Made by a program: the position numbers and the translations under genes
Origin: Paracoccaceae bacterium
Lineage (GTDB): Bacteria; Pseudomonadota; Alphaproteobacteria; Rhodobacterales; Rhodobacteraceae
Assembly (NCBI GenBank): GCA_033344815.1
Contig: JAWPMR010000001.1
Location: 1,536,136 to 1,600,135, forward strand
Length of the DNA stretch: 64,000 bases
Direction of reading: 5' to 3'
Shown here: positions 58,278 to 64,000 of the stretch, one piece after another
How the letters are laid out: each line of letters begins with the position of its first letter
Position numbering within the stretch: position 1 is the stretch's first letter
Notes under the pieces: model-generated
What the model saw: only the letters and a program-made list of their open reading frames with translations
Database searches by the model: none
Told to the model about the DNA's origin: nothing

Positions 58278-58472
58278 CCTCACATCTGACAAATCGCGCC
58301 GAAATTTCCCCCTCACGCTGCGCAGGCACCGTGACCAAATAGCGTTTCGGGGACGGCAAAGTCGTTTTTTCAAGCTTGGACGGCGCGTTAGAGCTTCCCT
58401 GCGTGATACTAGAACTGGCCAGCCGCGCCGCATGCGCCTATATTCATGTCAACACATGTCCGGGGAGACAGA

Positions 58473-58562
58473 ATGACGCCGACACCCATTCAGAAGGTCG
58501 CCTATCTGGCGCTCCTGCTTCTTATGACCGGTGTCGCTGCCGGGCTCTTGGGCGGACTCTGA
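58473..58562 (+). CDS. 29-residue membrane peptide at the head of the XpaC-TelA operon
   Basis: The tiny frame MTPTPIQKVAYLALLLLMTGVAAGLLGGL is one transmembrane helix, preceded by GGGGAGA at five bases, an excellent ribosome site. The stop lies four bases before the XpaC ATG, which otherwise has no clear Shine-Dalgarno sequence, so translation is probably coupled. It may be a real microprotein or a leader; its placement and helix make coding more likely than not. Confidence 0.6.
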   Translation: MTPTPIQKVAYLALLLLMTGVAAGLLGGL

Positions 58563-58566
58563 GCCT

Positions 58567-59454
58567 ATGGCAAAACGGTTCGGCGGCAAATACAGCCCAC
58601 AAAACACCGCATCTGACGATCAACCCGCGCCGCGCGGGACATTCACCGGCGCGCAGGTCGATCCGGTGGGCGCGCGGGCGAACCTGATGTTCCTGCCTGC
58701 CATTGTGCTGGTGTTCATGTCCCTGACACAAGGAGCCCTGGGCCTGACGCTGGGGTTGCTGGGCGCAGGTGCGATGACGCTGGGCGCGTGGTTGCTGCGC
58801 GGGGGGCTGATCGCGGAAGCGGCGTTTAACGCCCGCAAGGTTGCGCGCCGCCCGGCCCTGCCCCGCAAGGTGCTCGCGGCCTGTTTGGCCGGGGTGGGCA
58901 CCGGGCTCGCCGCGCTAAGTCATGAGGGGGGCATTGTGGCGGCTGTTTTGTTTGGTGTGACGACAACGGGGTTGCACCTGACAGCCTTCGGGATTGATCC
59001 GTTCAAGAGCAAGGGCATAGAAGGGATCGACACCTTTCAACAGGACCGTGTTGCGCGCGTCGTGGATGAGGCTGAGGCTCATATGGCGGCGATGAATGAC
59101 GCGCTCAAACGCGCAGGCGATCGGCATGTGTCCGCCCGGATGGAACAGTTTCAGACGGTCGTGCGGGATCTTATTCGCACCGTCGAGGAAGACCCGCGCG
59201 ATCTGACGGCGGCGCGCAAATATCTGGGCGTCTATCTGCTGGGTGCGCGCGATGCGAGCGTCAAGTTTGCCGATATCTATGCCCGCACCCAGGACGCCGA
59301 AGCGCGCGATGACTATATGGCGCTGCTGAATGATCTGGAACGTAATTTCACCGACCGCACCAAAAAGCTGTTACTGGATGATCACAGCGATCTGACGGTC
59401 GAGATCGAGGTCCTGCGGGATCGTTTGCAACGCGAAGGAGTGCGTCTGGACTGA
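58567..59454 (+). CDS. XpaC-like (5-bromo-4-chloroindolyl phosphate hydrolysis) membrane protein
   Basis: A 295-residue protein: hydrophilic N-terminus with FGGKYSPQ, two hydrophobic hairpins (about 38-77 and 100-143) and a C-terminal soluble part rich in Arg/Glu helices (VARVVDEAEAHMAAMNDALKRAGDRHVSARMEQFQTVVRDLIRTVEEDP...). XpaC (PF10112) was named for a phosphatase phenotype and is often found with TelA. It is probably not a classical phosphatase. Start at 58567 was chosen by position after the 29-residue gene. Confidence 0.85.
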   Translation: MAKRFGGKYSPQNTASDDQPAPRGTFTGAQVDPVGARANLMFLPAIVLVFMSLTQGALGLTLGLLGAGAMTLGAWLLRGGLIAEAAFNARKVARRPALPRKVLAACLAGVGTGLAALSHEGGIVAAVLFGVTTTGLHLTAFGIDPFKSKGIEGIDTFQQDRVARVVDEAEAHMAAMNDALKRAGDRHVSARMEQFQTVVRDLIRTVEEDPRDLTAARKYLGVYLLGARDASVKFADIYARTQDAEARDDYMALLNDLERNFTDRTKKLLLDDHSDLTVEIEVLRDRLQREGVRLD

Positions 59455-59483
59455 CGCATCAAAATGAAAAGGACGAATTGAGC

Positions 59484-60680
59484 ATGACCGAGACGACACG
59501 TGCAAAAGCCACTGAGAGCCTGAAGATGGTGGAAGAAGTGACCGCCGTTGTGCTGCCTGAACCCATCGAAGCAAACGCCATTGTGCCACTGGCAGAAGCG
59601 GATGCGCCGGTCAGTGCGGAGATTTCCAAGCGCATGGCGGAGATTGACATGTCCAACACGCAATCCATCGTCTCGTTCGGATCGCGCGCACAAGTCGAAT
59701 TGCAGGAAATCAGTCAGGCCATGCTGGGCGGTGTGCGCAACAAGGATGTCGGCCCCGCCGGGGACAGCCTGCGCAATATCGTGACCACAATCCGCGGCTT
59801 TTCAATCTCTGAGCTGGACGTGCGCCGGGATCGTAGCTGGTGGGAAAAGCTGATGGGCAAGGCCGCGCCTTTTGCCAAGTTCACCGCCCAATATGAAGAA
59901 GTACAAGGCCAGATTGACCGCATCACCGATGATCTGCTGGCGCATGAGCATACGCTTTTGAAAGACATCAAGTCGCTGGACATGCTCTATGAAAAGACGC
60001 TGCAGTTTTACGATGAACTGGCGCTTTATATTTCGGCGGGCGAAGAAAAACTGCGCGAGCTTGATGACACGGTGATCCCGGCCAAGGCGGCAGAGGTCGA
60101 CAAGGCAGCGGAAAACGATCAGGTGATGGTGGCGCAGGAACTGCGGGATCTGCGCGCGGCACGCGATGATCTGGAACGCCGTGTGCATGACCTGAAACTG
60201 ACCCGTCAGGTCACGATGCAATCGCTGCCGTCGATCCGTCTGGTGCAGGAAAACGACAAATCGCTGTTGACCAAGATCAATTCCACGCTGGTCAACACGG
60301 TGCCCCTCTGGGAGACGCAATTGGCACAGGCCGTCACCATTCAGCGCAGCGCCGAGGCTGCACAGGCCGTGCGACAAGCCAATGACCTGACCAATGAATT
60401 GCTGACCGCCAATGCCAAGAACCTGCGCGAGAGCAACAAGGTGATCCGCGAAGAAATGGAGCGCGGTGTCTTTGACATTGAGGCCGTCAAACAGGCGAAT
60501 GCCGACCTGATCGGCACCATCGAAGAGAGCCTGCAGATTGCGGATGAGGGCAAGGCGCGCCGTGCGGCGGCAGAAACCGAGTTGCAGGAAATGGAGACCA
60601 AGCTGCGCGACACATTGGCCAGCGCGAAATCGCGCGGTGATGGTGTGGGTGACACAGCGGCGGTTTCTGTACCGCGTTGA
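59484..60680 (+). CDS. TelA-family toxic-anion-resistance protein
   Basis: A 398-residue cytoplasmic, helix-rich TelA/KlaA/YceH protein: AQVELQEISQAMLGGVRNKDVGPAGDSLRNIVTTIRGF, WWEKLMGKAAPFAKFTAQYEEVQGQIDRITDDLLAHEHTLLKDIKSLDMLYEKTLQFYDELALYI, IRLVQENDKSLLTKINSTLVNTVPLWETQLAQA. TelA affects tellurite resistance and membrane/antibiotic stress in several bacteria. It is 29 bases after XpaC, its usual partner. ATG at 59484 is used; a TTG two codons upstream is possible. Confidence 0.93.
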   Translation: MTETTRAKATESLKMVEEVTAVVLPEPIEANAIVPLAEADAPVSAEISKRMAEIDMSNTQSIVSFGSRAQVELQEISQAMLGGVRNKDVGPAGDSLRNIVTTIRGFSISELDVRRDRSWWEKLMGKAAPFAKFTAQYEEVQGQIDRITDDLLAHEHTLLKDIKSLDMLYEKTLQFYDELALYISAGEEKLRELDDTVIPAKAAEVDKAAENDQVMVAQELRDLRAARDDLERRVHDLKLTRQVTMQSLPSIRLVQENDKSLLTKINSTLVNTVPLWETQLAQAVTIQRSAEAAQAVRQANDLTNELLTANAKNLRESNKVIREEMERGVFDIEAVKQANADLIGTIEESLQIADEGKARRAAAETELQEMETKLRDTLASAKSRGDGVGDTAAVSVPR

Positions 60681-60681
60681 G

Positions 60682-61629
60682 GTGACGCTGCGGCGCACCC
60701 TCCTGCGCGCAAGCGTTCTGGCCTTTGCGGGCGTGGCTTTGGTCGCTTGCGATCTCGCCCAGCCTGTGGCTGGCGTCAAAACGCCGCGCGTTCGCCCGTC
60801 CGATCTTGGCACCCCGCAGGTGCGCCCGACATCACAGGCCAGCGCCGAGTTGCGCAGCTATCTCGTGCAGGTGCAATCCGCCCAGCTGGGTCAGGGCTTG
60901 TTGCGTCAGGATGGCGGCGGCGCAGACACGCCATTCACCGCAGATATGCTGGCGCGGAATTTCGAACGCATCGTTTTTTTCAATGAATACGCCAGCGATC
61001 TGGAGGGGCGCGGGGGCGAAAGCCCGTTGCGTCGCTGGGCCGGGCCGGTGCGTGTCGGCACGATCTTTGGCCCGGGCGTTCCGCCCTCTCAGCGCGCCAG
61101 CGACAATACCATCATCCGGGACTATGCGCGCAGGCTGGGCCAGATTTCGGATCATCCGGTCATGAATGCGCCGAACCAGAATTTCATTGTCATTGTCGCC
61201 AGTGAAGACGACAGAAACGACGCGCTGGACGCCGCAGCGGCCAGAATTCCGGCCATTGGCCGCGCCAGCCTGAATGCGCTGCGCAATCTGCCACGCGATA
61301 CCTATTGTGCAGTGGCCGCGTTCGCCGCCGGGCCTGATCCCAATACATATACGGCAGCAGTCGCCATCATCCGGTCGGAAAACCCCGACCTGATACGGCT
61401 GAGTTGTGTGCATGAAGAAATGGCACAGGGGCTCGGTCTGGCCAATGACAGCCGCGACGCCCGCCCGTCGATCTTCAACGATGATGATGAATTCGCACTG
61501 CTGACGCGACATGACGAGATGCTCTTGAAGATGCTCTATGACCCCAGGCTCGAACCGGGCATGAGCGCGGCCGAGGCCGCACCGATCACACGCATCATTG
61601 CGCGCGAAATGATAAACGGACCCCTCTAG
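60682..61629 (+). CDS. DUF2927 lipoprotein
   Basis: A 315-residue protein starting with GTG at 60682, one base after the TelA stop. The N-terminus MTLRRTLLRASVLAFAGVALVAC has a lipobox LVAC, so it is probably lipid anchored. The domain (MLARNFERIVFFNEYASD, LRRWAGPVRVGTIFG, NFIVIVASEDDRNDALD, SCVHEEMAQGLGLANDS and DDDEFALLTRHDEMLLKMLYDPRL) matches DUF2927. The CVHEEMAQGLGLxND block resembles a degenerate HExxH zinc peptidase of secreted type, with E of HEEMAQ. Several longer starts inside telA are less likely. Confidence 0.85.
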   Translation: MTLRRTLLRASVLAFAGVALVACDLAQPVAGVKTPRVRPSDLGTPQVRPTSQASAELRSYLVQVQSAQLGQGLLRQDGGGADTPFTADMLARNFERIVFFNEYASDLEGRGGESPLRRWAGPVRVGTIFGPGVPPSQRASDNTIIRDYARRLGQISDHPVMNAPNQNFIVIVASEDDRNDALDAAAARIPAIGRASLNALRNLPRDTYCAVAAFAAGPDPNTYTAAVAIIRSENPDLIRLSCVHEEMAQGLGLANDSRDARPSIFNDDDEFALLTRHDEMLLKMLYDPRLEPGMSAAEAAPITRIIAREMINGPL

Positions 61630-61654
61630 GGTCGGACGTAAAGGACTATGCAAT

Positions 61655-62767
61655 ATGGGTATTTTTGATTTTCTGTCCGGTGAATTCATCGACGTCATTC
61701 ATTGGGTGGACAACACGCGTGACACGATGGTCTGGCGGTTTGAGCGTGAAGGTCACGAAATCAAATACGGTGCCAAACTGACCGTGCGCGAAGGTCAGGC
61801 GGCGGTTTTCGTGCATGAAGGGCAGCTTGCGGATGTGTTCACGCCCGGTCTTTACATGCTTGAAACCAACAACATGCCGATCATGACGACGCTGCAACAT
61901 TGGGATCACGGGTTCAAAAGCCCGTTCAAATCGGAAGTGTATTTCGTCAATACAACCCGGTTCAACGATCTGAAATGGGGCACAAAAAATCCGATCATCT
62001 GCCGCGATCCGGAGTTTGGCCCGGTGCGGCTGCGCGCCTTTGGCACCTACTCCATCAAGGTCAGCGATCCGGCGAAATTTCTGGTCGAAATCGTCGGGAC
62101 AGACGGCGAATTCACCATGGATGAGATCAGTTTCCAGATCCGCAATATTCTGGTGCAGGAATTTTCACGCACTCTTGCGCGCGCCGGGATCCCGGTCATG
62201 GACATGGCGGCAAATACCCGCGAGTTGGGACAGCTTGTGGGCAAGGAAATTGCCGCGCAATTGGCGGAATACGGGCTGAGCATGCCCGAGCTATACATCG
62301 AAAACATATCGCTGCCGCCAGCGGTCGAAGAGGTCATGGACAAGCGCTCCTCCATGGGCGTGATCGGAAATCTCAACGAATACATGCAGTTTCAGGCGGC
62401 TGAGGCGCTGGGGCGCGAGGGCGCGGGTGCCGCGGCCATTCAGGCGGGCCTTGGTGCGGGTCTGGGCATGCAAATCGGACAGGCGGCTGCCAGTCAGGGA
62501 CCCTGGGGCGCACGCGCAGCCCCGGCGCCGATTGCTGCGCCACCGCCGCCGCCCGTCGAACATGTCTGGCACATCGCTGAGGCGGGCCAAACCAAAGGGC
62601 CGTTTTCCAAGGCCGCTTTGGGACGCATGGCCACTGAGGGCGCTCTGAGCCGGGAAAGCATGGTCTGGACACCGGGTCAGGATGGCTGGATGCGCGCCGA
62701 AGATGTCGCGGAACTGGCGCAACTTTTCACCGTTCTGCCGCCCCCGCCACCACCGCCACCGGCGTGA
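61655..62767 (+). CDS. SPFH-domain protein with C-terminal GYF-like domain (YdjI-like)
   Basis: A 370-residue protein: N-terminal SPFH domain (about residues 10-260: GIFDFLSGEFIDVIHWVD, VREGQAAVFVHEGQLADVFTPGLYMLETNN, ISFQIRNILVQEFSRTL), an Ala/Gly/Pro-rich linker, then a GYF_2-type module (VWHIAEAGQTKGPFSKAALGRMATEGALSRESMVWTPGQDGWMRAEDVAEL) and a proline-only tail. This matches YdjI-type 'virion core protein' SPFH proteins, which are peripheral to the membrane and linked to PspA and zinc-ribbon partners. Fits an envelope-stress complex with TelA. Confidence 0.92.
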   Translation: MGIFDFLSGEFIDVIHWVDNTRDTMVWRFEREGHEIKYGAKLTVREGQAAVFVHEGQLADVFTPGLYMLETNNMPIMTTLQHWDHGFKSPFKSEVYFVNTTRFNDLKWGTKNPIICRDPEFGPVRLRAFGTYSIKVSDPAKFLVEIVGTDGEFTMDEISFQIRNILVQEFSRTLARAGIPVMDMAANTRELGQLVGKEIAAQLAEYGLSMPELYIENISLPPAVEEVMDKRSSMGVIGNLNEYMQFQAAEALGREGAGAAAIQAGLGAGLGMQIGQAAASQGPWGARAAPAPIAAPPPPPVEHVWHIAEAGQTKGPFSKAALGRMATEGALSRESMVWTPGQDGWMRAEDVAELAQLFTVLPPPPPPPPA

Positions 62768-62779
62768 GGAGAATTTAGC

Positions 62780-63511
62780 GTGAAAGGATTTGACACTAAG
62801 ACCCAAGAAGCACTGTCAGTTTACGTATATATATTGATGGACGGTACAAAACCTTTCTACGTCGGCAAAGGCACGGGAAACAGACTGTTCGATCATGCGA
62901 GGGGCGTTGTTGAGCAAGACAAGGCTTCCGAGAAGATTGAACGAATACTGCAGATCAAAAAGGAAGGGCGGGAAGTTGGACATGTTATTGTGCGTCATGG
63001 GCTCACGAATGAGGAAGCATTTCATGTCGAAGCCGCTCTTATTGATCTGCTCAGAAATTTCGATGATGGCCTAAGCAACATAGCTGCAGGACGTTACTCC
63101 AATATCCTGGGATGGAGGTCCGCAAACGACATCATCGCCGACTATGCAGCGAAACCACTTGAAAAACTGCATCACCCTGTTGTCATCATCAATATCAACA
63201 CTTCCTACAAACGCGGATCCGACGCTCTTTCAATTTATGAAGTAACGCGCGGCGATTGGGTTATAGGCGAGAAAGGACGCGAGACTGTGAAATTTGCATT
63301 GGCAGAATACCGCGGGCGCATCGCCGAAGTGTTTGAAATTGCATCTTGGGAACCCGTTTTTGCAGGGGTATCGAAAGCAGACAAAGATAAATTTCGATGG
63401 AGGTTCGCTGGAAAAATCGCTAGTGATACCGTGCGCGACCAATATCTAAATAGGTCAATCGCCCACGTCAAAACACGCGGAGCGTCTAACCCAATCCGAT
63501 ATACGATTTAG
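62780..63511 (+). CDS. LEM-3-like GIY-YIG domain protein
   Basis: A 243-residue protein. The N-terminal GIY-YIG domain reads YVYILMDGTKPFYVGKGTGNRLFDHA (Y15, Y17; F26-Y27-V28-G29; R35), with the possible catalytic E84 in EEAFHVEAALIDLL. This is the variant with KGxGNR, like eukaryotic LEM-3/Ankle1 nucleases. The C-terminal 120 residues (WVIGEKGRETVKFALAEYRGRIAEVFEI, KFRWRFAGKIASD, GASNPIRYTI) form a second conserved-looking part that may recognise a substrate. The gene is AT-richer than its neighbours and packed between them with gaps of 12 and 2 bases. Confidence 0.85.
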   Translation: MKGFDTKTQEALSVYVYILMDGTKPFYVGKGTGNRLFDHARGVVEQDKASEKIERILQIKKEGREVGHVIVRHGLTNEEAFHVEAALIDLLRNFDDGLSNIAAGRYSNILGWRSANDIIADYAAKPLEKLHHPVVIININTSYKRGSDALSIYEVTRGDWVIGEKGRETVKFALAEYRGRIAEVFEIASWEPVFAGVSKADKDKFRWRFAGKIASDTVRDQYLNRSIAHVKTRGASNPIRYTI

Positions 63512-63513
63512 TT

Positions 63514-64000
63514 ATGGTGTACGAAACGACCTCGAAGACCAAGCTTTCCGAGCACCATTTTCCCTGTGACAAATGCGGCGCGGATTTGCGGTTTGATCCC
63601 TCCGAACGTCAGCTGGTGTGCGATCACTGCGGCAACAGCCAGGCCTTGGGCGGCGGTCCCTGGGGGAAAACCCAGATCAGGGAATTGGATTTTGACAGCG
63701 CCTTAAACGCATCCCTGCCCGCCCTTGAGATGGAGGAAACGCGGGTTTCCAAATGCCCCAACTGCGCCGCTGAGGTCGAGTTTGATCCCGACATACACGC
63801 CACGGAGTGCCCGTTTTGCGCCACGCCGGTGGTGACGGATACGGGCAATCACCGCCACATCAAACCACGCGCGGTTTTACCCTTTGCCTTTGATGAAAAG
63901 ACCGCGCGCGCAGCCATGACCAACTGGCTGGGCCGCTTGTGGTTTGCCCCCAGCGGGCTTCAGGATTACGCGCGCAAGGGGCGCAAGATGCAAGGGATCT
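63514..64000 (+). CDS. Double zinc-ribbon protein (YdjG-like), 3' end cut off
   Basis: The first 162 codons of a gene that runs past the window. Two TFIIB-type zinc ribbons are seen: C18-C21/C36-C39 (PCDKCGADLRF...VCDHCGNS) and C81-C84/C99-C102 (KCPNCAAEVEF...ECPFCAT). Then HIKPRAVLPFAFDEKTARAAMTNWLGRLWFAPSGLQDYARKGRK begins a further domain seen in proteins often mis-named primosomal/helicase. Related to Bacillus YdjG, a partner of the SPFH protein YdjI. It begins two bases after the GIY-YIG stop. Confidence 0.88.
   Translation, partial: MVYETTSKTKLSEHHFPCDKCGADLRFDPSERQLVCDHCGNSQALGGGPWGKTQIRELDFDSALNASLPALEMEETRVSKCPNCAAEVEFDPDIHATECPFCATPVVTDTGNHRHIKPRAVLPFAFDEKTARAAMTNWLGRLWFAPSGLQDYARKGRKMQGI

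Follow-up and report, generated by a model that had tools for sequence, protein, structure and literature searches.

We analyzed a 64,000-nucleotide stretch of a Paracoccaceae bacterium genome (assembly GCA_033344815.1, contig JAWPMR010000001.1; G000:C1:1536136-1600135 in our numbering), hereafter the window. Seven plus-strand genes lie at its end (Table 1). Six code for a small membrane peptide, an XpaC-like protein, TelA, a DUF2927 lipoprotein, an SPFH-GYF protein, and a double zinc-ribbon protein; the other, between the last two, codes for a GIY-YIG nuclease. When the open reading frame (ORF) coordinates were re-read from the sequence, the intervals between the genes were 4, 29, 1, 25, 12, and 2 bases, an exact match to the seven genes and all six gap sizes given in an initial annotation of the window. 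The zinc-ribbon gene extends 626 bases beyond the window. Reading the genome on past the window end, a check proposed in that annotation, completed the gene and revealed further same-strand ORFs close behind it.

Table 1. Features of the seven-gene cluster, in window coordinates
Feature	Position	Strand	Evidence
Sigma-70-like promoter candidate TGGCCA-17-TATATT	58416-58444	+	pattern match
29-residue single-pass membrane peptide, conserved small ORF	58473-58562	+	homologues in relatives
XpaC-like membrane protein	58567-59454	+	PF10112, Pfam E 1.6e-25
TelA	59484-60680	+	PF05816, Pfam E 4.9e-106
DUF2927 lipoprotein, predicted matrixin/metzincin fold	60682-61629	+	PF11150, Pfam E 3.9e-61
SPFH-GYF protein	61655-62767	+	Band_7_1 E 3.5e-101; C-terminal GYF_2 E 2.4e-19
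GIY-YIG nuclease, CMoRE/PD-T4-3-like, very probably an inserted passenger	62780-63511	+	LEM-3_GIY-YIG Pfam E 1.3e-15; PADLOC PD-T4-3
Double zinc-ribbon protein, 370 residues, C-terminal hydrophobic helix	63514-64626 (63514-64000 inside the window)	+	genome read past the window

Conservation of the core operon

We surveyed the operon in two overlapping sets of loci. One was chosen by SPFH similarity and comprises the best 80 of at least 560 loci, a selection that leans to near relatives; the SPFH protein of the window shares 90-94% identity with its counterparts in named Roseobacter species and bins. The other consists of 18 further genomes of the genus, 19 with the window's own. Eight contigs, matched up by their lengths, are common to both (L004=L123, L005=L122, L006=L126, L007=L129, L008=L125, L015=L131, L017=L132, L045=L127), leaving 90 distinct loci besides that of the window. 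Of the 80 SPFH-selected loci, 76 encode XpaC, 77 TelA, 77 DUF2927, and 78 the zinc-ribbon protein, with some of the missing genes explained by contig ends (L041, L057). The gap between XpaC and TelA is at most 100 bases in 72 of the 73 loci in which both are complete, and that between TelA and DUF2927 in 74 of 74. All 18 genus relatives share the order XpaC-TelA-DUF2927-SPFH-gap-zinc ribbon.

We also examined 149 family genomes, drawn evenly. TelA is encoded in 133, Band_7_1 in 134, and DUF2927 in 142. Both TelA and SPFH are encoded in 131 genomes and neither in 15, with three discordant (Fisher p 1.5e-17; two weak Band_7_1 matches, in G059 and G122, were left out of the tally). The two genes are no more than 6 kb apart in 123 of the 131. 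The peptide, XpaC, TelA, DUF2927, SPFH-GYF, and zinc-ribbon genes are a conserved operon of most sampled family genomes. The initial annotation had proposed a membrane-associated operon around XpaC-TelA, SPFH, the zinc ribbon, and DUF2927, and had called for a survey of gene neighbourhoods in relatives; carried out in the family and the genus, this survey agrees with the proposal, as the core genes are neighbours in most relatives.

At the class level, 22 of 240 genomes have TelA matches (20 over the cut-off) and 35 have DUF2927. Among 18 TelA regions from other families (L138-L155), four (L140, L141, L143, L152) encode XpaC-TelA-SPFH-zinc ribbon with no DUF2927 match, their SPFH and zinc-ribbon matches being no more than about 130 bases apart. 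L144 resembles these but has a weak SPFH match, and L154 has a DUF2927 match on the opposite strand, 4.6 kb from TelA. The remaining regions have TelA with or without XpaC, or no match to the queries used. Within the operon, the DUF2927 gene seems to have been added in this family.

A homologue of the small peptide, 28-29 residues long with a single helix, is encoded 1-5 bases before XpaC in all 19 genus genomes. In the wider family set a strict pattern fits 37 of 72 loci. A loosened pattern (an ORF of 24-32 residues), drawn up after viewing the upstream ORFs from the strict round, fits 67 of the 72 while fitting none of 1440 shuffled upstream regions. Judged by this sequence conservation, the peptide is a real gene and not a chance ORF. 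Upstream of it lies TGGCCA-17-TATATT, the sole sigma-70-like match in a scan of both strands over 8.7 kb. Shuffled sequence yields a mean of 2.9 such matches, so the match alone is not significant; each base of TATATT is identical in at least 17 of the 19 aligned genus upstream regions.

Downstream, a nitroreductase gene (Pfam; 64623-65294) overlaps the zinc-ribbon gene by four bases. More same-strand ORFs overlap or abut behind it, two of them D-tyrosyl-tRNA deacylase-like and glycerate kinase-like by eye (L002 8623-10860 from the nitroreductase gene on). Given these overlapping and abutting ORFs, the transcript may extend beyond the seven genes, and the seven-gene boundary is partly a product of the window end.

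The GIY-YIG nuclease and the gap that holds it

The nuclease matches the PADLOC profile PD-T4-3 (E 7.6e-44), with residues 2-242 covering 4-253 of the 256-residue profile. It also matches two crystal structures of CMoRE, 9u75 (E 7e-28, residues 8-242) and 9u7u (E 1.5e-25), over its full length, C-terminal sensing region included. CMoRE is described as a single-component type IV restriction enzyme for DNA carrying 5-hydroxymethylcytosine (5hmC) or 5ghmC, in which an N-terminal nuclease is joined to a sensing domain at the C-terminus; the same source reports activity in E. coli, a GIYxY-YIG motif with a third tyrosine, and an inserted negatively charged loop in most members (PMC12923530). PD-T4-3 is reported to have protected E. 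coli K-12 from four Tevenvirinae phages (PMC12409345). Like CMoRE/PD-T4-3, the window nuclease has the third tyrosine, as Y15-V-Y17 and F-Y27-V-G align with the YVY and FYVG of 9u75, and its Arg35 (GNRxF) and Glu84 (VEAALID) align with identical residues in both solved chains. From the alignment we read Arg35 and Glu84 as a putative catalytic pair. Unlike CMoRE/PD-T4-3, it has a shorter loop with fewer consecutive acidic residues, and its gene lies inside a stress-like operon. By its sequence the nuclease is very probably a CMoRE homologue, one that would cut modified-cytosine DNA alone, with no help from the core. An open-access literature search for a roseophage with hydroxymethylcytosine gave only unrelated E. 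coli phage work.

The gene looks like a newcomer by several measures. Among the 19 genus genomes it is at the operon only in the window's own, and it is at none of the 80 SPFH-selected loci. Its GC content is 0.471 and its GC3 0.463, compared with 0.58-0.63 and 0.68-0.74 for its neighbours. Of 295 family genomes, 16 have PD-T4-3 matches, several of which are weak or partial; in the 15 besides the window's own, no gene of the operon was found within about 1.5 kb. The initial annotation had counted the nuclease as a part of the system and had suggested a co-conservation analysis; that analysis found no co-conservation with the operon. Taken with its foreign composition and its single-gene restriction family, this speaks against the gene being a system part, and as a co-conserved operon partner it was rejected on its absence from the operons of the relatives surveyed. 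We are confident that the nuclease is a passenger, recently inserted in the operon. A CMoRE/PD-T4-3 gene would have landed in the SPFH-to-zinc-ribbon gap and would now probably be read from the operon promoter. A family relative of the nuclease, from one of those 15 genomes (L137, 5277-6401, minus strand; 45% identity), with an extra N-terminal region in its ORF, adjoins ribosomal-protein genes named by eye as rpsI/rplM.

The gap that received the gene is insertion-prone. It measures at least 300 bases in 49 of 73 loci. The DUF2927-SPFH gap is that long in 6 of 74, and the two gaps upstream never are (0 of 73 and 0 of 74). We tabulated 98 gaps (about 90 distinct): 29 have nothing in them, in 48 the only occupants are b561-like, RidA, or SnoaL-like genes, and the other 21 contain at least 300 bases of unassigned DNA, alone or with those genes. 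L073 was excluded from this table (misplaced match, gap -1113), and the gap of -3 at L121 is a readthrough artefact, with b561 present there. Of the 18 genus relatives, 16 have RidA and/or b561-like genes in the gap and two have nothing there. The name b561-like goes back to L020, whose Pfam match passes the cut-off (E 7.6e-8), and to L022, whose match falls below it; the others were named by BLAST similarity. These small membrane proteins and RidA recur in the gap across relatives (L119-L135, L003-L082) and are missing from the operon of the window genome, which has two PF01292 (b561-type) matches elsewhere. The unassigned contents include VWA-Hint, YdjC-like, rhamnose isomerase, LytTR, CZB, methyltransferase, and ClpB-like ORFs, five of these seven on the opposite strand. 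We scanned 33 gap ORFs from 20 loci with PADLOC (19 of the 21 gaps with unassigned content plus L060; L047 and L157 were left out). These ORFs are longest-ORF picks, some possibly spurious in GC-rich DNA. PD-T4-3 matched one, the window's own gene; the only further models to match anything were two PDC-M37B models, DolB, and mad2, with one member each. A ClpB-like AAA gene in one gap (L078:9252-11081, minus strand) is probably the source of the DolB and PDC-M37B matches.

Two other explanations of the nuclease were weighed against a passenger origin. It could be a working part of a combined defence and envelope system, in which the core senses a membrane breach at phage entry and the GIY-YIG protein cuts DNA at the membrane. 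The tight 12- and 2-base spacing and the lack of a sigma-70-like match of the nuclease's own fit this idea, and a membrane-bound nuclease that cuts phage DNA has been reported (PMC13190303). However, the gene is missing from the operon at all 18 genus relatives and all 80 other loci (eight contigs shared), its family matches elsewhere have no operon gene within about 1.5 kb, and CMoRE, as described, acts in E. coli as a single component (PMC12923530). We regard such a combined system as highly doubtful. Alternatively, the gap might serve as a dedicated site for defence cargo that is exchanged between strains or species, an idea that its length relative to the other gaps would fit. Yet most filled gaps hold only RidA, b561-like, or SnoaL-like genes, others hold metabolic or regulatory genes on either strand, and the PADLOC matches number one PD-T4-3 among the 33 ORFs and one for each of the four other models. 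These contents do not support a defence-cargo slot as a general rule, and we consider it very improbable.

Predicted fold and altered metal site of the DUF2927 lipoprotein

In the alignment of DUF2927 proteins an invariant Cys23 follows a hydrophobic helix, which agrees with the assignment of this protein as a lipoprotein in the initial annotation. A structure model built from 59 sequences has a mean pLDDT of 88.8 and a pTM of 0.82. All 50 Foldseek matches listed for it are matrixins (best E 0.0089, prob 0.99; none below 0.001), as are all 50 listed by VIA-align 2, where the match to MMP7 has Z 11.1 and an rmsd of 2.9 over 147 residues. Residues 93-289 are predicted to have a matrixin/metzincin fold. 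The claim rests on the predicted structure because sequence profiles find no peptidase: among the 20 Pfam families matched by any of the 59 members at E up to 1, none is a peptidase. No paper on DUF2927 was found in the open-access literature searched, nor among the papers listed there for metzincins and lipoproteins.

Like matrixins, then, the protein has this fold in prediction (Z about 11); unlike them, it has E245, Q249, and D256 in place of the zinc histidines, with Glu246 retained. Where metzincins have HExxHxxGxxxH, the operon DUF2927 has EExxQxxGxxND (E245-E246-x-x-Q249-x-x-G252-x-x-N255-D256), invariant in the 59 sequences. We compared these positions in an alignment of 27 rows, seven from operon proteins and 20 from other DUF2927 ORFs (19 of 20 fetched stretches; two paralogues in this family). 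Columns 245/246/249/256 read E/E/Q/D in 24 rows, S/Q/R/A in L172, and H/E/H/H in L174 and L175, so that the full HExxHxxGxxxH is found in two of the 20 other ORFs, both from the class but not the family. No DUF2927 matches are weaker than these two (E 1.2e-9 and 2.1e-7), and their alignment is less sure, though neighbouring conserved Cys, Gly, and Asp columns anchor it. By their motif these distant relatives are possibly active metalloproteases. The concerted swap of the zinc histidines to Glu/Gln/Asp points either to a different metal or to a role in binding. Most family genomes with any DUF2927 match have at least two; in the window genome a second gene lies outside the operon (G000:C1:418144-418743, L158), with HEEVAQALGPLND at the zinc-site motif position.

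Relation to known stress modules and a possible mechanism

In Bacillus the SPFH protein YdjI is reported to be required, with YdjG and YdjH, for bringing PspA to the membrane (PMC8581546), and YdjG is described as a zinc-ribbon membrane protein (PMC9239133). The two genes of the Listeria XpaC-TelA pair are listed among bacteriocin-responsive genes, and a telA-type mutant is said to be more sensitive to nisin and tellurite (PMC12791056, citing Collins 2010). The ties to membrane stress drawn in the initial annotation stand as far as these published TelA/XpaC and YdjGHI roles go. No match to PspA (PF04012) was found in the window genome at E up to 0.001. Its suggestion that the core might be a defence complex was not supported. 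In a PADLOC scan of the five larger core proteins (the 29-residue peptide was left out), nothing matched XpaC, TelA, DUF2927, or SPFH with an E value of 1 or less, and the zinc-ribbon protein had three matches, at E 0.07-0.15. Among the papers listed from the open-access literature searched, no title or abstract opening describes this operon.

The core could be read as an ordinary PspA-YdjGHI phage-shock module of the Bacillus type. Like that module in B. subtilis, it encodes together an SPFH (band 7) protein and a zinc-ribbon membrane protein, comparable to YdjI and YdjG (PMC9239133, PMC8581546). It differs in having TelA and XpaC for PspA and YdjH, and in adding the DUF2927 lipoprotein and the 29-residue peptide. 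PF04012 is found in 28 of the 149 family genomes (25 over the cut-off), compared with 133 for TelA. Because PspA, the defining part, is without a match in its own genome, we rejected this identity as extremely improbable. The operon also contains the known XpaC-TelA pair (Listeria lmo1966-lmo1967; Bacillus YaaN is a TelA homologue), with the two families likewise adjacent; it differs from the pair by its extension with SPFH, zinc ribbon, DUF2927, and peptide.

The proteins themselves were compared with solved structures by sequence. The SPFH protein matched in its GYF part (7z3c, E 7.5e-4), with one chance match besides, TelA had no credible relative (one chance match, E 0.44), and neither DUF2927 nor the zinc-ribbon protein had any. 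The zinc-ribbon protein has, by eye, two CxxC...CxxC pairs and a C-terminal hydrophobic helix; its Pfam zinc-ribbon matches are sub-cut-off. The TelA structure model is poor (pLDDT 69, pTM 0.49). In the PDB it matches a mixture of long-helix proteins (best Z 12.1), which were given no weight; neither PspA nor ESCRT-III is among the 50 structural matches listed, for a model too weak to conclude from.

We consider it likely that the locus is two things together, a conserved membrane surveillance or repair operon without PspA and a recent CMoRE/PD-T4-3 passenger. By analogy the core might work by membrane surveillance, a mechanism to which we give slightly less than an even chance. The membrane-anchored zinc-ribbon protein and XpaC would recruit SPFH, SPFH would gather the helical protein TelA at the damaged membrane, and the lipid-anchored, protease-fold DUF2927 protein would be the outer arm. 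This recruitment order is proposed because Bacillus YdjG/H-YdjI-PspA was taken as the model. Relative to known stress modules, the new elements would be the conserved tiny peptide and DUF2927 with its predicted matrixin fold and swapped metal site. A bolder version is tentative and on balance unlikely: a PspA-free TelA-SPFH machine with the 29-residue peptide and an outer arm of a new metzincin-fold class, whose Glu/Gln/Asp site would make it a hard-metal enzyme or else a sensor that detects envelope damage by binding.

Several points weigh against the reading as an operon with a passenger. TelA and SPFH lie apart in eight of the 131 genomes with both, on different contigs in seven and at 38 kb in one. 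At L081, a long locus, TelA adjoins SPFH and DUF2927 has no match. We infer the single transcript from spacing and a weak promoter match. The likeness of the zinc-ribbon protein to YdjG is one of features (zinc ribbons and a C-terminal helix), and that TelA stands in for PspA is a guess, its model being poor. For the nuclease, the acidic-loop region reads EQDKASE, four residues shorter than in 9u75 (DDD). The compact 12- and 2-base fit of its gene would also suit a selected role in the operon. PD-T4-3 was not found in G266, the sole genus relative searched whole, the others having been searched in the operon region.

For the family, an operon of no known function becomes a testable PspA-free membrane-stress module. 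It includes a conserved tiny membrane protein likely overlooked by annotation, and for its DUF2927 protein there is now a fold prediction, with a specific, altered active site that can be mutated. The capture of what is probably a restriction gene in a conserved operon is a warning against inferring function from the neighbours in one genome.

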